A model generated the notes under the pieces. The model had not been told where the DNA came from. It made no database searches and saw only the letters and a program-made list of their open reading frames with translations. From NCBI RefSeq assembly GCF_000455205.1, contig NZ_AUWQ01000091.1, forward strand, positions 1-44,188: a stretch of 44,188 bases of DNA, written 5' to 3'. The DNA comes from Mycobacterium sp. UM_CSW (GTDB lineage Bacteria; Actinomycetota; Actinomycetes; Mycobacteriales; Mycobacteriaceae). Positions 34,586 to 44,188 of the stretch are shown here, in pieces (the first letter of the stretch is position 1; each line of letters opens with the position of its first letter). The translations under genes and the position numbers were made by a program.

Positions 34586-35707
34586 ATGGCGCCCCGCGAT
34601 CCCGATGCGACCGAAGCGCTGCTGAAAGAACTTCTGTGGACCTATGGGCCGTGCGGCCAGGAGGACGAGGTCCGAGCCGTCTGCGCCCGCGAGCTGGAAC
34701 CCGTCGTCGACGACATGTGGACCGACGACGCCGGCAACCTGGTCGGCTACATCGCCGCGGGAGGTCCCCCCGACGACGCCGCCCACCGGTCGGCCGCAAT
34801 CGCCGGGCCCAGCACCGCGACGCGCGTCATGGCGCACATGGACGAGCTGTCCATGCTGGTCAAGCGGATCGAGCCGGACGGCTCGCTGCACGTGACGCAA
34901 CTGGGCACCATGTATCCCGGGAACTTCGGACTCGGCCCGGTCGCCGTCCTGGGCGAGCACGAGACGCTCACCGCGGTGCTCACGCTCGGCTCCGAACACA
35001 CCACCAAGGAGAGCCCGCGGATCTGGCAGACCAAACCCGATGCGGGTGATCAGGCGCTGGACTGGGAGCACGTCTACGTCTTCACCGGCCGCACCGAAAA
35101 GGAGCTGGCCGACGCGGGCGTGCGGCCCGGCACGCGGGTGTGCGTCGAGCGGAGCAAGCGGACGCTCGTCGAGATCGCGGACTACGTCGGCTGCTACTTC
35201 CTCGACGACCGAGCCGCGGTGACCGCGCTGCTGCGCGCGGCGCAATTGCTGCGCGAGCGCGGACAACGGCCCGCCGACGACGTCTACCTGGTATTCACGA
35301 CCAACGAGGAGATCGGCGGGGTGGGCGGCTCCTACGCCAGCGCCTCACTGCCGGGCACGCTCAACCTCGCCCTCGAGGTCGGACCCACCGAGCGGGAGTA
35401 CGGCACCACCGTCACCGGCGGTCCGATCGTCGGCTACAGCGATGCCCTCTGCGTCTACGACAAGGACGTCGCCGACCGGCTGATGGCCATCGCCTCCGAC
35501 CGGGGGCTGGAGCCGCAGGCCGCGGTGCTGGGCGCGTTCGAGTCCGACGCGTCCCATTCCAAGGCCAACGGGCTGTCGCCGCGGGCGGCCCTGCTGTGCC
35601 TGCCGACGCTGAGCACGCACGGGTATGAGGTCACGTCTCGGGGCGCCATCGACGCCATGGCCGACATCGTCGCCGACTTCGTGCTGCAGCCTGACGGCCA
35701 CGCCTGA
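34586..35707 (+). CDS. M42-family metallopeptidase-like protein
   Basis: 373 residues from ATG 34586 (GAGAGGA ribosome binding site); an earlier in-frame start adds 47 unrelated residues. Visible M42/M20 features: first metal His in RVMAHMDELSM (near 89), bridging Asp in FLDDRAA (near 208), catalytic Glu-Glu in TTNEEIGGVGG (near 241), and the last His in STHGYEV (near 347). The usual Asp ligand of the second metal (ALDV) is Glu here (ALEVGPTE). Such enzymes are dinuclear zinc or cobalt aminopeptidases or deblocking peptidases and often form dodecamers. Cytosolic; its substrate is unknown. Confidence 0.85.
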   Translation: MAPRDPDATEALLKELLWTYGPCGQEDEVRAVCARELEPVVDDMWTDDAGNLVGYIAAGGPPDDAAHRSAAIAGPSTATRVMAHMDELSMLVKRIEPDGSLHVTQLGTMYPGNFGLGPVAVLGEHETLTAVLTLGSEHTTKESPRIWQTKPDAGDQALDWEHVYVFTGRTEKELADAGVRPGTRVCVERSKRTLVEIADYVGCYFLDDRAAVTALLRAAQLLRERGQRPADDVYLVFTTNEEIGGVGGSYASASLPGTLNLALEVGPTEREYGTTVTGGPIVGYSDALCVYDKDVADRLMAIASDRGLEPQAAVLGAFESDASHSKANGLSPRAALLCLPTLSTHGYEVTSRGAIDAMADIVADFVLQPDGHA

Positions 35708-35740
35708 CCTCCTGGGCCCTGCCCGAAAGTCAGAGACCAA

Positions 35741-35810
35741 AAGTTGAGTAAATCTTTTGCGGTGTAATCCAATGGTATGTAAACTCGCCAATCAAGTGCA
35801 TCGCCGGTAT
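35741..35810 (+). promoter_or_regulatory. Three-copy 70-base control element, copy A (before GT2 operon)
   Basis: Aligns without gaps to 40894-40963 and 41792-41861. Shared blocks are AAGTTGA at the left, GTATG at 35775-35779, then 15 bases, then AGTGCATCGCCGGTAT at 35795-35810. TAAACT directly after GTATG fits a -10 box, so the conserved right part may lie in the transcript leader. Downstream likeness (CGCACCAGG, GTGACGCGC) continues to about 35842. A CAAAAG/CTTTTG inverted repeat lies at 35738-35759. Confidence 0.7.
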
Positions 35811-35872
35811 ACGCCGACGGCCCGCACCAGGGGGTGACGCGCAGCACTTCATTAGAGATTGGCGGCCCGAAG

Positions 35873-36703
35873 ATGACCAGCGTTTCATCACTAGACTCAG
35901 TCCAGACTTCCCTCTCTCGACGTCCTCGCTCTCGCCCGAAATCGAGCCCTTCGGCCCCGACGGTCAGCCTGGTCATTCCGGTGCGGAATGAGGCGCGCAA
36001 CATCGGCTGGGTGCTCGAGCAGCTCGCTGACGAGGCCACCGAGATCATCATCGTCGACGGCGATTCGACCGACGTCACGCTCATCACCGCGCGCCGATCC
36101 CGGCCCGACATCCGCGTCGTGCCGCAGCAGGGGCCCGGCAAAGGCAGCGCGTTGCGCACGGGGTTCCTGGCCGCAACCGGTGACATCATCGTGATGATGG
36201 ACGCTGACGGCAGCATGTCGCCCAGCGAGATCCCGCACTACGTGCATTTCATTGCGAACGGCTACGACTTCGTCAAGGGGTCGCGGTTCATCAGCGGCGG
36301 ATCGTCGTTGGACATCACGTGGTTCCGCCGGTTCGGCAACTGGTTTTTGCTCTCCGTGTTCAACTCGCTGTACCACGGCAACTTGACCGACCTCTGCTAT
36401 GGGTTCGTGGCTTTCGACCGCCGCTATCTTGATCACCTCCACCTCTCGGCGACCGGCTTCGAAATCGAGGCCGAGATGACGGTGCGGGCCATGCAGGCGG
36501 GGTTGCGAATTGCGGAGGTTCCCAGCGTGGAACTGCCGCGTCGCAGCGGAGCATCGAACCTGCATGCCATCCGCGATGGCATCCGCGTGCTGCGGACGGT
36601 GCTGCGTCACCACCGCTCGGGTGTTTCTGGGCACCTGTACCAGGCGGCACGACAGGCTGCAGGGCGACCGGCTGTCGGTATGTCAGCCGAAGTGACGGCG
36701 TGA
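35873..36703 (+). CDS. GT2-family glycosyltransferase
   Basis: 276 residues from ATG 35873. GTG 35834 is also in frame, but it falls inside the conserved leader shared with two other genes, so ATG 35873 is preferred. GT-A fold: VSLVIPVRNEARNIGWVLEQL near 31-51, IIIVDGDSTD near 58-67 and the metal-binding IVMMDADGS near 104-112. It is of the dolichyl/polyprenyl-phosphate mannosyl- or glucosyltransferase type. It likely moves a sugar from a nucleotide donor to a lipid carrier or surface lipid. No clear C-terminal membrane helix is visible. The stop overlaps the next gene by 4 bases (GTGA). Confidence 0.88.
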   Translation: MTSVSSLDSVQTSLSRRPRSRPKSSPSAPTVSLVIPVRNEARNIGWVLEQLADEATEIIIVDGDSTDVTLITARRSRPDIRVVPQQGPGKGSALRTGFLAATGDIIVMMDADGSMSPSEIPHYVHFIANGYDFVKGSRFISGGSSLDITWFRRFGNWFLLSVFNSLYHGNLTDLCYGFVAFDRRYLDHLHLSATGFEIEAEMTVRAMQAGLRIAEVPSVELPRRSGASNLHAIRDGIRVLRTVLRHHRSGVSGHLYQAARQAAGRPAVGMSAEVTA

Positions 36704-37839
36704 CTGGCAATGCCCGCCCGCCCGACCGGCTGATTGATGTCAACGACCTGCCGATCGGTTTCATTGACGTCGCGCTGAGCATGCCGCCGGCCGAGCTGGT
36801 CGGCGAAACGGTTGTGGTCCTGCTGCGTCCCGAGAAGGGACCCCCGACGGCGGTATTGAAGGTGGCGCGTGGCCAGCTCAGAGCCGCGAAATTGCGCATG
36901 CAGCGGCGCGTGCTCGCCGAACTCGCTGTCCACCAAGGACTTAACGACGAATGGCGCAAACTGCTACCGCGGATCCTGGCATTCGACGAGCGCGCAAATG
37001 CGGCCGTGTCCGTCGAGTCGTATCGCCGTGGAACGGACCTGGCCGAGGTTCTGGCGCGCCGCCCGAACCGTGTCGAGGAGCTGACCGCGGCGGCTCTCAG
37101 AGCCATCGCGCCCCTGCACCGCGGAACCGCGACGCCCGCCGTCGTCGACAACTTCTGCTTATTGCGGCGATGGGTCGTCGAACCCCTGGCGACCCTGACG
37201 GACGCGTGCCGGCGGCTGGATCCGCATCGGGTTCCCGACATGAACCGGCTTGGCACCGTGCTACGTCAAGCCCTTGTCGGCTGGCGCATGCCGGTGAGTT
37301 GGACCCATGGCGACTACACGCCCACCAACGTTCGGGTCGCCGGCATTCGCGGCCCGGTTACCGGCATCGTGGATTGGGGCGGGGCGCGGCCGGGCCAGCC
37401 TGCCTTCGTCGACGAGTACCTGATGATCCTGACGGCGAGTTCTCTGGTGGAGCGAACCGATCTGGGCACGGTCGTCGCTGACCGGCTGAGAGCGGGCGGT
37501 CTCTCGGTTCGCGAGCGTTCGGCGCTGCGTGCCGCGCACGACGAAGCAGAAGCGGACATCGAGCACACTGAGCCCATCGACGAGCGCATTGCCATCGTGC
37601 TGACCTGGCTGCGCCATGCTGCCGGCTCGTGGCGCAAGCGTGAAACCCCGCCAGACCACCACACCTGGTGGGCCACCGACGTGGCTCCGGTTCTCGACGC
37701 CGTCGCCGCGTGGCTCGAATTCGATGTTCCGAGCGTGGGTTCCCGCGCGGGCCGAGGCGCGGCAAGCGTCGTACCGATGACAAAGCCGACGCGCGTCGGG
37801 GACGCCCCGCAGGCCCGGAGGAACCGGACCGATGGCTGA
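36700..37839 (+). CDS. Aminoglycoside phosphotransferase (APH)-fold protein
   Basis: 379 residues from GTG 36700. The C-terminal lobe has the catalytic loop SWTHGDYTPTNVRV (HGDxxxxN, near residues 204-217) and the metal Asp in GIVDWGGARPG (near 225-235). The N-terminal lobe has VAVLKVARGQLR, a likely nucleotide-site Lys. APH-fold kinases also phosphorylate sugars, choline and lipids, so with GT2 and esterase neighbours a small-molecule or glycolipid kinase is as likely as drug modification. It overlaps the GT2 gene by 4 bases and leaves 2 bases before the esterase gene. Confidence 0.82.
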   Translation: MTGNARPPDRLIDVNDLPIGFIDVALSMPPAELVGETVVVLLRPEKGPPTAVLKVARGQLRAAKLRMQRRVLAELAVHQGLNDEWRKLLPRILAFDERANAAVSVESYRRGTDLAEVLARRPNRVEELTAAALRAIAPLHRGTATPAVVDNFCLLRRWVVEPLATLTDACRRLDPHRVPDMNRLGTVLRQALVGWRMPVSWTHGDYTPTNVRVAGIRGPVTGIVDWGGARPGQPAFVDEYLMILTASSLVERTDLGTVVADRLRAGGLSVRERSALRAAHDEAEADIEHTEPIDERIAIVLTWLRHAAGSWRKRETPPDHHTWWATDVAPVLDAVAAWLEFDVPSVGSRAGRGAASVVPMTKPTRVGDAPQARRNRTDG

Positions 37840-37841
37840 CC

Positions 37842-38924
37842 ATGCAAAACGGAGAACGAACGCCTAGAGATCGTGCACCCACTCGCCGGGGCACCGCGAT
37901 CATGTTCGACGCTCGGTGTTCAGCTGCCGCTCGGGAGGTCGTGGAGGATGAGCCGAGTGTCGCCGGCCGGCTTGTGTGGCTCTGCGCCCGGCTTACCATC
38001 CGGCCGGTTCTGACTGTTGGAAGCCACCTGGCGAACGCGCCGTGGCCGTGGGGTCTCGTCGATTTCGCCGCCCGGGCTGTGGCACCCGTGCCGGGCAGCG
38101 TTCGCCAGACGATTCGGTTGCCGCATTGCACCGCCCGATTGGTCCGCGCTGCCGGCGTGCTGCCTGCCGACGGCAGCCGGCGCGTCGTGTTGTACATGCA
38201 CGGCGGCGGCTTCTTGACCTGCGGCGCCAACACGCATGACCGGCTCGTCACCGCGTTGTCGAAGTACGCCGACGCCCCGGTCCTGGTGATGAACTACCGG
38301 ATGATGCCCAAGCACTCGATCGGTGAGGCGTTCGATGATTGCGACGACGGGTACCGGTGGCTGCGCACGCGAGGTTACGGCCCCGACCAGATCGTCTTGG
38401 CCGGCGACTCCGTGGGCGGCTACCTGTCACTGGCGCTGGCCGAACGGCTGCACGCCGAGGGTGAGGACGTCGCGGCCATCGTCTGCATGTCGCCTTTGCT
38501 GCGGATCGCGACGCGTGATGGACCGGTGCACCCCAACGACAGTCGCGATGCGATGTTCTCCGCCAAAGCGTTTGACGCATTCCGCCACCTGATCGCCAAA
38601 GCGGATCAGCGCCGTGTCGGGGACGGGCGCTGGAAGGAGATCTTCGAGCCGCTCGACCACATCGAGGCCGGTCTGCCCCGAACGTTGATTCATGTATCCG
38701 GCTGCGAGGTCCTGCTCGACGACGCTCGCGTGGCCGCGCAGCGGCTCGCCGAGGCCGGAGTGCCGGTGCAGCTGCGGGTGTGGCCCGGCCAGATGCATGT
38801 CTTCCAGATCGCAGCGTCGATGGTCCCGGAGGCCGATCGTTCTTTGCGCCAGATTGGGAACTACATCCGCGAGGCGACCGACACGCGGCGCCCAGAGAGG
38901 CCGCGATCGACAGTGGTGGGCTAG
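37842..38924 (+). CDS. HSL-type (family IV) esterase/lipase
   Basis: 360 residues from ATG 37842; GGAGG lies 18 bases upstream, and ATG 37902 is an alternative. Alpha/beta hydrolase with oxyanion motif YMHGGGFLTCG (near 108-118), nucleophile motif LAGDSVGGYLS (GxSxG, near 187-197), Asp in VSGCEVLLDD (near 290) and His in WPGQMHVFQ (near 318). It resembles mycobacterial Lip proteins that cut short to medium acyl esters. No signal peptide is seen. It is third in the GT2 operon. Its TAG stop shares CTAG with the stop of the convergent TetR gene. Confidence 0.87.
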   Translation: MQNGERTPRDRAPTRRGTAIMFDARCSAAAREVVEDEPSVAGRLVWLCARLTIRPVLTVGSHLANAPWPWGLVDFAARAVAPVPGSVRQTIRLPHCTARLVRAAGVLPADGSRRVVLYMHGGGFLTCGANTHDRLVTALSKYADAPVLVMNYRMMPKHSIGEAFDDCDDGYRWLRTRGYGPDQIVLAGDSVGGYLSLALAERLHAEGEDVAAIVCMSPLLRIATRDGPVHPNDSRDAMFSAKAFDAFRHLIAKADQRRVGDGRWKEIFEPLDHIEAGLPRTLIHVSGCEVLLDDARVAAQRLAEAGVPVQLRVWPGQMHVFQIAASMVPEADRSLRQIGNYIREATDTRRPERPRSTVVG

Positions 38925-39631
38925 TCGCCGGCGTGCGCCGCGGCGGTCACGGGGACCTCAAATGAGAGCGGTTCTGCGCAAACCTTTCTCACCGCGAGTG
39001 CGTGGCGTCGCTCCATGAACTTCTTGAAGTAGTCGATTCGATCGGGGTTGGTGAAGCTGGGCAGTGCCAGTATCCACGCCTTCTTGAAGTTATCGAGGTA
39101 GTCCTCGGGTTGGTCCGGATTGCTGATTCGGCGGACACCCACCCACAGGGCAATCAACATTTTGGCGACGTCCGCGGGATCCTGCTGGTGGATGACGTCG
39201 CCTTCCCTGGCTGCTTTCTCGATGAGGGTGATGACGAAGTCTTTCCTGGACTTCCACAGTGCGCGAGGCTCTGGCGTCGTGTTTTCCAGTGCGTCGAGCA
39301 GCCGCATGCCGGCTCGGGAGAGGTCGTACTGGGTGTCCTGAACGGCACGGAGGAAGACGAATTCGATGAGGGTCTCCAGGCCCGACATGTTGCGCTCAAG
39401 CAACTCGGCGACCGCCGAACGGGTCAGCTGGGTGAGTTCGTCGATGATCGTCAGCGCCAGCGCCTGCTTCGAGGAGAAGTGAAAATACATCGCCCCTTTG
39501 GTCAGCTCGGCCTCCGCGAGGATGTCATCGAGGCTGACGAGGTTGTACGGAAGCTGGGCGAACTGGCGTGCGGCGGCGGCGATGAGGCGATCGCGGGTGT
39601 TGTCGGGTCGCCGTTCGCTGTCATCAGTCAT
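38921..39631 (-). CDS. TetR-family regulator 1 (tandem pair)
   Basis: 236 residues from ATG 39631, with a GGCGGGG ribosome binding site. The N-terminal DNA-binding domain carries SLDDILAEAELTKGAMYFHFSSKQALA (near residues 28-54), a helix-turn-helix much like that of gamma-butyrolactone receptors of Streptomyces. The C-terminal ligand domain is intact. It is closely similar to the product of 40023-40664 over its whole length, including the start region. The last 25 residues (RKVCAEPLSFEVPVTAAAHAGD) have no match in the other copy. It faces the esterase gene tail to tail and may regulate the GT2 operon. Confidence 0.9.
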   Translation of the reverse strand: MTDDSERRPDNTRDRLIAAAARQFAQLPYNLVSLDDILAEAELTKGAMYFHFSSKQALALTIIDELTQLTRSAVAELLERNMSGLETLIEFVFLRAVQDTQYDLSRAGMRLLDALENTTPEPRALWKSRKDFVITLIEKAAREGDVIHQQDPADVAKMLIALWVGVRRISNPDQPEDYLDNFKKAWILALPSFTNPDRIDYFKKFMERRHALAVRKVCAEPLSFEVPVTAAAHAGD

Positions 39632-40022
39632 CGCCCCGCCTGTTCTCTTTGCGCCCGCCGCGCAGCGGGGACACCTTCTCGGCCCGAGAAAATAACACCG
39701 CCGCGTCGATGCCTTCGATGATAGGCCCCGCCGACACGCAGTGTCTGCAGGCCTGCCCGGCGTGGTGACCCTCAATTCATCCCGCGGCCGCCCCTGACCT
39801 TACACCCTGCGTTTACCGCGGCTTCTCCCGAAGTTACGCCCACGACGGGCCGCGGATGGTTGCTGGGAGATCCCCAGACCCCGGACGCCAGAGACGTGAG
39901 TCGGCCCCGGTCGACACTCGGAACCCAAGTCGTCGTCCGCTGCTCGATGCGAACACGGGTGGGGTGTGGAGGAGACGCTCTGCCGACAGGTCGTCGTGAG
40001 AGCGTCTGCGGCAGAACATCTT
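39632..40022. other. Gap between TetR genes
   Basis: 391 bases without a supported gene. It holds the upstream region of TetR-1 and the hairpin at 39973-40007 behind TetR-2. Short open frames here lack ribosome binding sites and protein-like composition. Confidence 0.6.
39973..40007 (-). terminator. Hairpin AGACGCTCT-N17-AGAGCGTCT behind TetR-2
   Basis: Perfect 9-base arms lie 16 bases past the TetR-2 stop on the minus strand. No T-tract follows. It is a reasonable mycobacterial terminator or 3'-end stabiliser that would separate the two TetR transcripts. Confidence 0.45.
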
Positions 40023-40664
40023 TCACGCAAGCGCTTGGCGGCGTTCGATGAACTTGGTGAAGTAGTCGATTCGATCGGGATTGGCGAAGCTGGGCAGTGC
40101 CAGCGTCCATATTCTTTGCAGGGTGTCGAGGTAATCCGCTGGTTTGTCGAGATTGCTGGTTCGGCGGATGCCCACCCACAGTGCCACCAACATTTTGGCG
40201 ATGTCTTCGGGATCGTGCTCGGCGATGACGTCGCCCTCGGCGGCTGCCTTTTGGATCAGGCTGGTGACGAACTCGATCCATGACTGCCACACCGTCGGGG
40301 GCAGGGAGGTCGGGTTGTCCAGCGTGTCGAGCAGTCGGACGCCGGCGCGCGCCACGTCGTCCTGGGTGTCTTGAGCGGCACGGGCGAAGACGAACTCGAT
40401 CAGGGTTTCCAGGCCCGACATGTTGCGGTCAAGCAACTCGGCGATCGACGAACGGCTCAGCTCGGTGAGATCGTCGATGATCGTCAGCGCCAGCGCCTGC
40501 TTCGAGGGGAAGTGAAAATACATTGCCCCTTTGGTCAGTTCGGCTTCCGCCAGGATGTCGTCGAGGCTCACGACGCTGTACGGGCGGTGGGCGAACTGGC
40601 GTGAGGCGGCGGCAATGATCCGCTGACGCGTCACGTCGGCTCGCCGTTCGCCGTCCTCATTCAT
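40023..40664 (-). CDS. TetR-family regulator 2 (tandem pair)
   Basis: 213 residues from ATG 40664. The helix-turn-helix SLDDILAEAELTKGAMYFHFPSKQALA is nearly identical to that of TetR-1, and long blocks such as ERNMSGLETLIEFVF-like and LPSFxNPDRIDYF are shared. The likeness continues upstream of both starts (GGCGGGGC), so the whole unit was duplicated. The C-terminal ligand domain is more diverged, suggesting the two may sense different ligands while binding related operators. It is divergent from the PAS gene, whose upstream region holds element copy B and an inverted repeat at 40867-40901. Confidence 0.9.
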   Translation of the reverse strand: MNEDGERRADVTRQRIIAAASRQFAHRPYSVVSLDDILAEAELTKGAMYFHFPSKQALALTIIDDLTELSRSSIAELLDRNMSGLETLIEFVFARAAQDTQDDVARAGVRLLDTLDNPTSLPPTVWQSWIEFVTSLIQKAAAEGDVIAEHDPEDIAKMLVALWVGIRRTSNLDKPADYLDTLQRIWTLALPSFANPDRIDYFTKFIERRQALA

Positions 40665-40866
40665 TGCCCCGCCTTGTCTTGTCGCGGTTGCCGCGCGAAA
40701 AACCGTCGCGGCGCGGCCAGGCAGTTCCGCGACCGAGTCAGTCCCTTCGGGGAGGGGGGCGATGGCACGCCGGGCGTGTGCACCCCCCTGGAGCGGCGTT
40801 GTGTTCGTCGAAAGTCTTCCGTTGGTCTGGCCTGGTCTGATCTGGAGCTGACGTCCTGACTTTAAT

Positions 40867-40901
40867 TCACACTTTACTTCGCGGGAAGACTCAAAGTGTG
40901 A
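40867..40901. promoter_or_regulatory. Inverted repeat TCACACTTT-N17-AAAGTGTGA
   Basis: Perfect 9-base arms in an AT-richer patch of the TetR-2/PAS intergenic region. The right arm overlaps the left end of element copy B. It is a candidate operator for one of the two TetR proteins; the 17-base spacer would place the arms about 2.5 helical turns apart. Confidence 0.45.
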
Positions 40902-40963
40902 TAATTTGGCCGCTACCATGCCAAAGAGTATGAAACTTGGCTGGTCAGGTGCATCGGCGGTAT
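40894..40963 (+). promoter_or_regulatory. Three-copy 70-base control element, copy B (before PAS gene)
   Basis: Ungapped match to copies A and C. GTATG is at 40928-40932 and GGTGCATCGGCGGTAT at 40948-40963, again with 15 bases between GTATG and the second block. The leader after it (GGTGACACG, CTTCCGTGAGGAGG) matches that of the PE gene, and the element ends 75 bases before the ATG (72 in copy C). Confidence 0.7.
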
Positions 40964-41037
40964 CTGTACACGATTGCGCCTCAGGCGTCGCGGTGACACG
41001 CCCGCCACAGGTCGGCTTTCTTCCGTGAGGAGGACAT

Positions 41038-41565
41038 ATGTCGGTCGTGACCAGACAACCGGATGTGGCGACGCGCCTGCCATCGAAGTCAAACGCGCCT
41101 CCGCCCACCGCGGTCTTACCCGACCCACCGCGCGACTGCCCTGGCATGGACGCCAGCGCGGCGGTCGAGCGGCGGCGTAATGGAGGTCCCGGCGATTCGC
41201 CGATGGACATCTTGAGCCGGTTGCCCGCCGTGGTGGTGTTGGAGCGGCTGCCGGTTCCTTCGCTCGCGATGGCGCGGGACGGCGTCATTTTGTTCGCCAA
41301 CAGGGCGTTTGCCGAGATGGTGGGTTACGAGCTGGAAGCGTTGGCGGGCTCGGTGTTTCCCGAGATGTTCCACACCGTGCCGGCCACCTTGTGTTCGGTT
41401 GCCGGCGTCGACGCAGTCGCGAATTTGATCGTCGAGCTGCGGCATTGTGAGGGTTGGACGGTGCGGGCCAGGATGAGCCAGACGGCGATGTTGCGCCAGG
41501 CCGACCCGGTCGTGCTGGTGACGTTCGACAATATGACGGAGCGGCTGTGGATGGACGAGCGCTGA
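41038..41565 (+). CDS. PAS-domain protein with PE-like first codons
   Basis: 175 residues from ATG 41038 with AGGAGG at 41028-41033. Residues about 65-170 form a PAS fold: VLERLPVPSLAMARDGVILFANRAFAEMVGYELEAL, then strands ending VVLVTFDNMTERLWMDER. There is no kinase, cyclase or DNA-binding domain, so it may be a free-standing sensor or partner. The first 60 residues are disordered and Pro/Arg-rich. The start MSVVTRQP mirrors MSFVTTLP of the PE gene, and the leader is also shared, so its 5' end was probably copied from a PE gene. Confidence 0.8.
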   Translation: MSVVTRQPDVATRLPSKSNAPPPTAVLPDPPRDCPGMDASAAVERRRNGGPGDSPMDILSRLPAVVVLERLPVPSLAMARDGVILFANRAFAEMVGYELEALAGSVFPEMFHTVPATLCSVAGVDAVANLIVELRHCEGWTVRARMSQTAMLRQADPVVLVTFDNMTERLWMDER

Positions 41566-41932
41566 GTCGGCGCCCTGGATATCCCCGCGTGCCGATTCGT
41601 TCCCAGGCAGCTGCGCCGTCGCCCGCGGCGACCTGGGTGTTCTAGACCGGCGCTGCGTTTCCCCAAGCGCGGGTGACGCGCTTGCCGCTGCCGTGACCCG
41701 GCTTCATGCCGTGGCACCGGCCTCAGCCTCGGCTCAGTGGGCAGTCTGTGCGAAGCCTCCTCGCGGCGAGTCCGCGACCTGCAAGTACTACAAGTTGACC
41801 AATTCCCTTACTAATGCTTCGATTAGTATGTATTCTGCTGAATGAAGTGCATTGCCGGTATCCACGGTCGCACCAGGCCCCGCGTAACGGCGTCCGGCCG
41901 ATGGCTCGACCTGCTTCCGCTAGGAGGAGCAC
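41566..41932. other. PE gene upstream region
   Basis: 367 bases without a supported gene. The right half holds element copy C (41792-41861), a 20-base palindrome (41809-41828) and the PE leader with AGGAGG at 41922-41927. The left half shows nothing notable. Confidence 0.6.
41792..41861 (+). promoter_or_regulatory. Three-copy 70-base control element, copy C (before PE-PPE-esx)
   Basis: Ungapped match to copies A and B. It has AAGTTGA at the left, GTATG at 41826-41830, TATTCT next to it as a possible -10 box, and AGTGCATTGCCGGTAT at 41846-41861. It contains the palindrome TACTAAT-GCTTCG-ATTAGTA at 41809-41828, which is only weakly kept in the other copies. Confidence 0.7.
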
Positions 41933-42232
41933 ATGTCGTTTGTGACCACGCTGCCGGCGATGTTGTCGTCCGCAGCCGACGAACTGCAAAACATCGGCGC
42001 CGCCGTGACCGCCGGAGACGCGGCCGCGGCTGCCCCGACCACCGGGGTGATTCCCGCAGCGGCCGACGAGGTGTCGGCGCTGACGGCGGCGCACTTCACG
42101 GCGCACGGCGTGCTGTACCAGGAGGTCAGCGCCCAGGCCGCCGCGATTCGTGAGCTGTTCGTCAGCACCTTGGCGACCAGCGCCGGTTCTTACGCGGCCA
42201 CCGAGGCCGCCAACGCGGCCGCGGTCCTCTGA
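41933..42232 (+). CDS. PE-family protein (PE domain only)
   Basis: 99 residues, exactly one PE domain: [22 protein letters not shown], a helical hairpin, and YAATE near residue 88, which fits the YxxxD/E secretion signal. It lacks a C-terminal extension, as expected for the partner of a PPE protein. The PPE gene starts 19 bases after its stop, so the two should form a secreted heterodimer through ESX-5, with EspG5 binding the PPE partner. Confidence 0.96.
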
Positions 42233-42251
42233 GCTGCGCAGCGGGGTCACC

Positions 42252-43667
42252 ATGGATTACGGGGCGCTACCGCCGGAGATCAACTCCGGGCGGATGTATG
42301 CCGGTCCGGGCGCGGGGTCGATGCTGGCCGCCGCAGCCGCCTGGAACGGGTTGGCCGCCGATTTGCGTTCTGGGGCGGCCGGCTACGACGCCGTGATCTC
42401 GGCGCTCACCGGTGGACCGTGGCTCGGCCCGTCGGCGATGGCGATGGCGGCCGCGGCCGCACCCTACGTGGCGTGGATGGGCGCGACCGCCGCGGAGGCC
42501 GAGCTGGCGGCTACTCAGGCTCAAGCGGCGGCGGCCGCCTATGCCGCGGCCTTCGCGGCGACGGTGCCGCCGCCGGAGATCGTGGCCAACCGCGCACTCC
42601 TGATGATGCTGATCGCGACCAACTTTTTCGGACAGAACACACCGGCGATCGCGGCCACCGAGGCCCAGTACGCGGAGATGTGGGCACAGGACGCCGCGGC
42701 GATGTACGGCTATGCCGCGAGTTCGGCGGCGGCCACAGCGCCGGTGACTCCCTTCGCTCCGGCGCCGCAGACCACCAACCTGGCCGGGTTGGCGGCGCAG
42801 GGGGGCGCGAGCGCCCAGTCGGCCGGCTCGGCGATTGGCGGCGCACAGCAGACGCTGTCCCAATTGACCTCGGCGATCACCGGGGCGCTGAACAGCCTCG
42901 CGTCACCCTTGTCCTCCGCACTGGGCGGAACTTCTTCGTCGGGCGCTGCCGTGGGCCCCTTCGGGAGCATCTTGTCCGACTCCTCGCTCGGAGGCATCGC
43001 GACCGGCCTGATCACCTCGTACGGCGCGATGCCAGGGTGGATGGGCTTGTCGGTGATGTCGACGATGTTGGGCACCGTTTTCGGTCCCCTCATCGGTGGC
43101 CCGATGAACATCGGCTTCGCATCCGCAGCCGCGGCCAACACGGCCGGCGCGGCGGGTGCGGCGGCGGGAGCCCTGGGGCCGATCGGCGCAGGCTTAGGCG
43201 GTATCCCTGGCTTGGGCGGCTTCGCGGGCCTGGGTGCGGCGACCTCCGTCGGCGGATTGGCGGTGCCGCAAAGTTGGGGCCTCGCGGCAGCGGGCGCTTC
43301 GCCGGGGATGCTCGGGACGCTGCCGATGGCTTCTCCGGCGGCGCTGCCGTTGGCGGGCGACGAAGTTGCCGCCGGACTGGGTTTCCCGGTGCCGCTCGGC
43401 GGGGTCGGCGGGCTCGGCCGAGCCGCGGCCGCGGGTGCCGGAGCCGGCGCGGCCATCGCGGCGGCCAAGTACGCACCGCGCCTCAGGTTCGTGTCGCGTC
43501 CACCAGCCGCCGGATACTCGGACGACGGGGAAACCCCGGCGGCCCCACCGGCGGCGGCGAAATACCCTGTGCCCGCGTCGTTTCCGACGAATGGCCATGC
43601 GCCCCCCGGGTATCAGGCGGCGGTCATATACGTGCCGACCAACGGAAACTCGTCGGCCAACGTGTGA
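42252..43667 (+). CDS. PPE-family protein, PPE-SVP subgroup
   Basis: 471 residues from ATG 42252: [20 protein letters not shown], the canonical PPE start. The PPE domain (1-180) includes [21 protein letters not shown] near 117-137. The C-terminal part is Ala/Gly-rich, with the SVP-type motif [12 protein letters not shown] near residues 335-346 and a terminal [10 protein letters not shown] segment. Paired with the upstream PE gene and two Esx genes, it forms the PE-PPE-esx-esx order of ESX-5a-like clusters. Secreted or surface exposed. Confidence 0.96.
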
Positions 43668-43762
43668 CGGCAGCACAAATCAATTGACTCGAGGTGTCCT
43701 GGCTCGCCGCACAAGCGAACCAGCCACCGACAGAACCCATCCAAGTGAGGTAAGGAGCCAAA

Positions 43763-44059
43763 ATGGCAACACGATTCATGACCGACCCGCATGAGATGCG
43801 GGCGATGGCGGGCCGGTTTGAGGTCCACGCGCAGACCGTTGAGGACGAGGCCCGCAAGATGTGGGCGTCGTCGCTCAACATCGCCGGTGCCGGCTGGAGT
43901 GGCCAGGCCCAGGCGACGTCCTACGACACCATGGGGCAGATGAATCAGGCCTTCCGCAACATCGTGAACATGCTGCACGGTGTGCGCGACGGGCTGATCC
44001 GCGACGCGAACAACTACGAGCAGCAAGAGCAGGCTTCCCAGCAGATCCTCGGCAGCTAG
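43763..44059 (+). CDS. WXG100 protein, EsxJ/K/M/P/W group
   Basis: 98 residues: [20 protein letters not shown], turn AGWSG (WxG, near residues 43-47), and the C-terminal YEQQE secretion signal near 85-89, ending QQILGS. This is the QILSS subfamily, the CFP-10-like partner secreted as a heterodimer with the next gene product. It has a strong GTAAGGAG ribosome binding site. It lies 95 bases after the PPE gene. Confidence 0.96.
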
Positions 44060-44107
44060 CCAGAAATACCTTCTGCCCCAAAACTTTTCAATCAAGGAGA
44101 CATGAAC

Positions 44108-44188
44108 ATGACCATCAATTACCAGTTTGGCGATGTGGATGCCCATGGTGCGACGATTCGCGCCCAGGCTGCGTCGTTGGAGGCCGAG
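44108..44188 (+). CDS. WXG100 protein, EsxI/L/N/O/V group (cut by window edge)
   Basis: 27 codons begin MTINYQFGDVDAHGATIRAQ, the start of the Mtb9.9-type ESAT-6-like proteins. ATG 44108 is preferred over ATG 44102 because AAGGAG at 44094-44099 is 8 bases away. It would pair with the preceding Esx product. The rest lies beyond the window. Confidence 0.95.
   Translation, partial: MTINYQFGDVDAHGATIRAQAASLEAE

Follow-up and report, generated by a model that had tools for sequence, protein, structure and literature searches.

A repeated mycobacterial promoter element linked to genes for ScbR-type regulators

We analysed a 44,188-nucleotide stretch of the genome of Mycobacterium sp. UM_CSW (contig NZ_AUWQ01000091.1, hereafter the window), in which a 70-base element occurs three times, at positions 35741-35810 (copy A), 40894-40963 (copy B) and 41792-41861 (copy C). 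The element very probably represents a promoter class of a regulon, as judged by its anatomy, its repetition before different genes, and its co-occurrence and linkage with genes for TetR regulators of the ScbR type. More specifically, we read it, with a probability of about 65%, as the promoter that places PE/PPE and surface-glycan genes in an ScbR-type regulon. On the same footing, ScbR would be the direct regulator that binds this promoter. The element thus probably marks a signal-controlled set of cell-surface genes.

Anatomy of the promoter

The three copies align without gaps, as the initial annotation of the window had described. Copies A and B share 40 of the 70 bases, A and C 46, and B and C 37, whereas shuffled controls of A against C averaged 18.2 identical bases and never exceeded 30 (2000 trials, 70 bases). 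Over a 36-base core the corresponding identities are 27, 28 and 23. The consensus was read from 18 close copies and from a larger set of 86 matches, of which 83 were used; 82 of these had full flanks, and 74 non-redundant sites remained after near-identical ones had been merged.

Each element has a conserved GTATG, as a rule followed directly by TANNNT, which resembles a SigA-type -10 region. TAAACT and TATTCT, which follow GTATG in copies A and C, had been proposed as -10 boxes, and this assignment is upheld by the conservation of TANNNT, bases on which the search pattern had placed no constraint. Among the columns left free by the pattern, all 18 close copies have C at -6 and T at +10 (the final T of TANNNT), and most have T at +5 and A at +6. 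In the 74 sites, C at -6 reaches 95% and positions -4 to -1 are mostly A, followed by GTATGTA, while the T, A and T of the -10 box are present in 97, 96 and 92%. Copy B of the window deviates from TANNNT with AAACTT, and its relatives carry TAAATT and TGATTT. The putative -35 box, separated by a 17-base spacer, is weak (T in 45% and 72% of the 74 sites at its first two places).

Two conserved blocks flank this putative SigA-like promoter. The upstream block is a dyad, ACY-N3-RGT, which starts 37 to 39 bases 5' of the G of GTATG and is perfect in 55 of the 74 sites (1.2 in shuffles). The AAGTTGA-like block that the initial annotation had placed at position 1 is indeed present, but it corresponds only to the right half of this dyad. 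On the downstream side, the right block ends in CGGTnTG and would cover the first transcribed bases; from the position of the -10 box, the transcript should start near the A preceding RGTGCAT, which would place the block at about +1 to +17. When the sites are aligned on GGTnT, G, A and T in the frame of AnGTGnATnnnCGGTnTG reach 82, 73 and 67%. CGGTnTG itself is matched in 66 of the 74 sites (14.3 in shuffles), and in 48 under a strict match (1.3 in shuffles); to say that weaker members lose the right block would thus go too far. Measured between the GT of each block, the dyad and the right block are 62-64 bp apart in 55 of 62 measured sites, or about six helical turns. This spacing would allow two dimers to meet across the promoter, an arrangement that is a guess and rather doubtful.

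Further symmetric sequences were seen in the dyad region of some copies. Copy B has an inverted repeat, TCACACTTT / AAAGTGTGA (40867-40875 and 40893-40901), that overlaps its dyad; it is shared with Mycobacterium sp. E796 and M. paraense, and is absent from copies A and C. At two other loci (L045, 11145, and L047, 3316) a longer perfect palindrome, CCGGACTAGNAGTCCGG, is present where the dyad would be expected, and the gene behind it encodes a protein starting MSxKSxRRGIAAGL.

Occurrence and association with ScbR-type genes

A search of the whole genome and of related mycobacteria, which had been suggested as a check on the motif, showed that the element extends well beyond the window. With up to three mismatches, GTATG-N15-RGTGCATYGSCGGTAT occurs at four places in the 6,394,793-base genome (one match for the reversed control pattern), the fourth being copy D on contig C124 (31406-31441, minus strand, two mismatches). 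A search with just the right block, allowing one mismatch, returned the same four places and C37:54088 (one match for its control). Allowing two mismatches in 396 Mycobacterium genomes, the core pattern gave 25 places in 17 genomes, against about 11 matches for the reversed pattern. Eight places were discarded by eye as chance, none of which is among the matches listed by the later model R1, and 17 places in nine genomes were retained. Copies are present in Mycobacterium sp. E796, M. paraense and M. sp. 852002-51057, with a further copy in M. palustre; of nine sequence stretches compared, those from Pseudomonas and Flavobacterium were left out. In E796 four strong copies lie inside 25 kb of a single contig; judging by this layout, C91 and C124 may be adjoining contigs in the window genome.

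Model R1, built from 18 copies, found the element in 24 of the 396 genomes at E <= 0.05. Model R2 was built from 54 aligned sites (58 matches, 57 used after removal of one duplicate) and detected the same promoter in 126 of the 396 genomes at E <= 0.02. In the window genome it gave six copies at E <= 0.001, namely A, B, C and C124:31405(-), 22510(+) and 19346(-), and eight at E <= 0.02, with C106:19277 (E 0.0012) among the matches listed. An order-wide sample of 150 genomes from 55 genera yielded four matches at E <= 0.001, all from the genus Mycobacterium. The view that this is a control element before gene starts is supported. The small regulon first proposed needs enlarging: PE/PPE/Esx genes do belong to one set with a glycosyltransferase operon, but the set is larger than three units.

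The most likely regulators are encoded on the opposite strand, in the interval that separates copy A from copy B. A regulator site had been suggested before, without mention of these two TetR genes, which we call ScbR1 and ScbR2. Both match the ScbR autoregulator-receptor model NF041196, ScbR2 just at the curated cut-off and ScbR1 below it (Table 1), and they are 70.9% identical to each other. The nearest solved structures to ScbR2 are CprB (5.8e-23), an unnamed TetR regulator (1.3e-22) and AvaR1 (6.8e-21), and the helix-turn-helix stretch TKGAMYFHF resembles TKGALYFHF of CprB.

Across the genus, ScbR-type genes were found in 286 of the 396 genomes at E <= 1e-20 (92 above cut-off), and in 250 with a best E <= 1e-30, here called strong. 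A strong ScbR gene is present in 125 of the 126 motif genomes compared with 250 of 396 overall (Fisher 1.5e-30, kinship ignored). Outside the 24 training genomes the figures are 102 of 102 against 227 of 372. With regard to linkage, we compared 150 motif places in 81 genomes with the ScbR places, both taken from the matches listed. In 53 of the 55 genomes with both kinds, at least one copy is no more than 3 kb away from an ScbR gene, and all 61 such near places are on the opposite strand to ScbR. The gene beside ScbR varies by species (PE, PAS or flavoenzyme-like), with ScbR as the constant partner. Distant copies also occur, for example in one genome (G412) at 864 kb from its listed ScbR gene.

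These data suggest the following mechanism. ScbR1 and ScbR2, encoded alongside, would most likely bind the two blocks, either of which may be the operator, and when bound would repress or gate transcription until a small ligand releases them. The PE-PPE/Esx, PAS and surface-glycan genes would then switch jointly. If this holds, PE/PPE genes would have one common switch, and the association of this promoter class with A-factor-receptor-type regulators would open the system to assays, since the receptor, its DNA target and the genes concerned would all be named. To our knowledge, the control of PE/PPE genes is thinly mapped.

Several points weigh against an ScbR-type regulon. One motif genome (G384, 80% complete, 740 contigs) has no ScbR match, and at the R2 threshold used the motif is missing from 125 of the 250 genomes with a strong ScbR gene. 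The co-occurrence test leaves kinship aside, and its 1e-30 limit was chosen after the list had been seen; relaxed to 1e-20, it gives 125 of 126 for the motif genomes and 286 of 396 overall. Genomes with a listed ScbR gene have 104 motif places, and 43 of these lie more than 3 kb from that gene or on another contig. For a simple repressor, the putative position of the upstream site (about -57 to -49) would be atypical. Moreover, the operator of the Streptomyces receptors, the autoregulatory element (ARE), was not recovered. Its published consensus, an 18-bp palindrome, is AAACVGNNBVNNCSGTTT (AvaR form) and AWWCCRBBHDDNMSGTWT (SfbR form). Allowing two mismatches, neither form occurs in elements A to C, and over the 74 sites the AvaR form is mildly enriched, being found at 12 (4.3 in shuffles), and the SfbR form is not found at all. 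Finally, the AfsA synthase (PF03756) was found in none of 24 motif genomes; as a positive control, a search for the same family in 61 genomes of the order was positive in 8, including one of the genus Mycobacterium.

Some of these points fit an alternative in which the promoter is read by something else, be it a special sigma factor or an activator bound at the dyad, and ScbR is a mere neighbour or acts indirectly. Activators often bind upstream of a -35 box, which is where the dyad is found, the elements do not fit the ARE consensus, and half of the strong-ScbR genomes lack the motif. We nevertheless consider this markedly less probable, though it deserves to be taken seriously, in view of ScbR being present in 125 of 126 motif genomes and in all 102 held-out ones, of the divergent layout at all 61 near places among the matches listed, and of a -10 region of SigA-like form. 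Far less probable is that the copies are inherited pieces of a PE-gene upstream region, spread by PE/PPE duplication, with no specific regulator. It is true that a 99-residue PE-like protein starting MSFV... stands behind the element in 17 of 83 rows, and that the PAS proteins behind it start PE-like, with MSVVTRQP (by eye). Pairwise, however, the window copies have 24 to 33 mismatches over 70 bases, and yet the same few positions are fixed over 74 non-redundant sites and before unrelated genes, which argues for selection; duplication may still be the origin of the copies.

A reading of the right block as a cis-acting RNA, which the initial annotation had entertained, or as a leaderless leader peptide (GTG-CAT-NNN-CGG-TAT) would suit the putative position of the block at +1 to +17 and a GTG frame open in 16 of 18 close copies, but is most improbable: the leaders of 13 copies gave a consensus fold of -0.13 kcal/mol with four pairs, none changed on both sides; a search of 35000-44188 against Rfam gave one match, far below gathering score; GCG or GTA replaces GTG in two of the 18 copies; and CAT and TAT never become CAC and TAC, yet codon 3 varies freely, so bases rather than residues are conserved.

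As to the regulators themselves, the stretches upstream of ScbR1 and ScbR2 yielded no ARE of either form (two mismatches allowed) and no dyad RACY-N3-RGTYN, and autoregulation of the pair is therefore without support. The region upstream of ScbR2 (40665-40884) has two GGTCTG words a few bases apart that resemble a dyad half; they are present in E796 and partly kept in M. paraense. In many species the TetR pair consists of one close (about 1e-44 to 1e-69) and one distant (1e-21 to 1e-31) relative of ScbR2, as at loci L159-L170, L177, L178 and L125-L127, which is reminiscent of a receptor and a pseudo-receptor. ScbR1 and ScbR2 of the window, unlike these pairs, are close to each other.

Genes around and behind the promoter

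The features of the window are collected in Table 1. The PE and PPE proteins behind copy C, the latter with a PPE-SVP end, may be ESX-5 substrates; what was observed is their membership of the PE, PPE and PPE-SVP families.

Table 1. Elements and genes in the window, with positions counted from its first letter.
Feature	Position	Strand	Details
Element A	35736..35810	+	dyad ACCAAAAGT 35736-35744; GTATG 35775-35779; -10 TAAACT 35780-35785; right block 35795-35810
Element A, putative parts	candidate -35 35757-35762; putative transcription start ~35794	+	-35 TTGCGG
Element B	40889..40963	+	dyad ACTCAAAGT 40889-40897; GTATG 40928-40932; right block 40948-40963
Element B, place of -10	40933-40938	+	AAACTT
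Element C	41787..41861	+	dyad ACTACAAGT 41787-41795; GTATG 41826-41830; -10 TATTCT 41831-41836; right block 41846-41861
Glycosyltransferase family 2, behind element A	35834..36703	+	Pfam PF00535, E 8.3e-25; alternative ATG start 35873
APH-fold protein, unit A gene 2	36700..37839	+	Pfam PF01636, E 3.3e-17
Alpha/beta-hydrolase (hormone-sensitive-lipase type), unit A gene 3	37911..38924	+	Pfam PF07859, E 2e-45; NCBIfam matches under cut-off
ScbR1, ScbR-type TetR gene	38921..39631	-	NF041196, 125.3 bits (cut-off 150); TetR_N
ScbR2, ScbR-type TetR gene, divergent from element B	40023..40664	-	NF041196, 150 bits (cut-off 150)
PAS-domain protein, behind element B	41038..41565	+	Pfam PF00989, E 8.8e-7
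PE protein, gene 1 behind element C	41933..42232	+	Pfam PF00934, E 1.3e-29
PPE protein with PPE-SVP end	42252..43667	+	Pfam PF00823, E 1.4e-66; PF12484, E 1.5e-6
WXG100 (Esx) protein	43763..44059	+	Pfam PF06013, E 1.6e-19; TIGR03930

Many of the nameable genes behind the promoter are PE-PPE or surface-glycan genes. Pfam names are given for the downstream genes that were scanned; most PE, PPE, PAS and flavoenzyme-like rows were judged by eye from the first residues. On this basis, the neighbours of ScbR include PE-PPE pairs (e.g. L125, L160 and L164), PAS proteins (the window, L010 and L039) and flavoenzyme-like proteins (L163, L166, L168 and L169). Elsewhere the promoter precedes genes for a bacterial sugar transferase (L114), a glycosyltransferase (L128) and an APH-fold protein (L109). 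In the window genome, copies E and F (both in L123) precede an AT3-SGNH acyltransferase and a GHMP kinase, respectively, and copy D precedes a protein with a polysaccharide-flippase match. That match is below the curated Pfam cut-off, as are those of the flavoenzyme-like protein of L166 and the PIG-L-like protein of L178, and the MKVVLFCGGYGMRMR protein of L125 has no Pfam match.

Some non-PE proteins behind the element start like PE proteins, as judged by eye, such as that of the PAS gene and a beta-eliminating lyase (MSLVTTQP). The places are 41038-41070 compared with 41933-41965 in the window, L116 (6843-8009), L117, L113 and L044. It looks as though other genes had captured a PE promoter together with its leader and first codons.

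Near copy D (L041, 3524-19090, on contig C124 of the window genome; also L040) there are genes for a molybdopterin oxidoreductase, a GNAT protein, an AMP-binding protein, an ATP-grasp protein, a Cys/Met pyridoxal-phosphate (PLP) enzyme and a FAD-NAD(P)-binding protein, a group that resembles a small-molecule pathway. The AMP-binding, ATP-grasp, PLP and GNAT enzymes might be the makers of the ligand.

Comparison with known systems

The closest parallels are the gamma-butyrolactone (GBL) and butenolide receptor regulons of Streptomyces (ArpA, CprB, ScbR, AvaR1/AvaR2 and SfbR/SfbR2), whose regulators are of the same TetR type and often have paired homologues. According to PMC7480387 and PMC5744401, ScbR-type proteins of Streptomyces repress transcription until a small ligand frees them from DNA, and a receptor shares its palindromic sites, located at -10 or -35 boxes, with the pseudo-receptor. 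The targets differ, being antibiotic genes in Streptomyces and PE/PPE, Esx and surface-glycan genes here. The mycobacterial dyad is also about 5 bp shorter than the Streptomyces ARE. Because the elements do not fit the ARE consensus, the dyad is shorter and AfsA was not found in 24 motif genomes, we would place the two proteins with or beside the ScbR family and would not classify the DNA element as an ARE.

In the Rhodococcus gbl system (gblA-gblR-gblE), as portrayed in PMC5735094, a GBL-type receptor gene is likewise divergent from its neighbours. There the AfsA-type synthase gene gblA adjoins the receptor, in contrast to the 24 motif genomes. The same divergent layout of TetR gene and presumed target is known from the mycobacterial TetR-target pairs surveyed in PMC4482099, where two PPE proteins appear among the divergent membrane proteins. 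The terms butyrolactone, ScbR, CprB and A-factor are absent from the main text of that survey. Unlike the pairs described there, the promoter type found here repeats at many places in one genome.

It is tempting, if still tentative, to picture an AfsA-free, A-factor-receptor-like switch widespread in mycobacteria, in which ScbR-type pairs, released by a small molecule, would act on the promoters of a dispersed set of PE/PPE, Esx and surface-glycan genes; the operator, unlike the Streptomyces ARE, would consist of two blocks that bracket the promoter. A literature search, mostly of top-ranked titles and abstract openings, returned no description of an ScbR-type regulon or of such a promoter in mycobacteria. 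The component parts are all of known kinds, but novelty seems to lie in how they are combined, in the two-block layout and in the targets.

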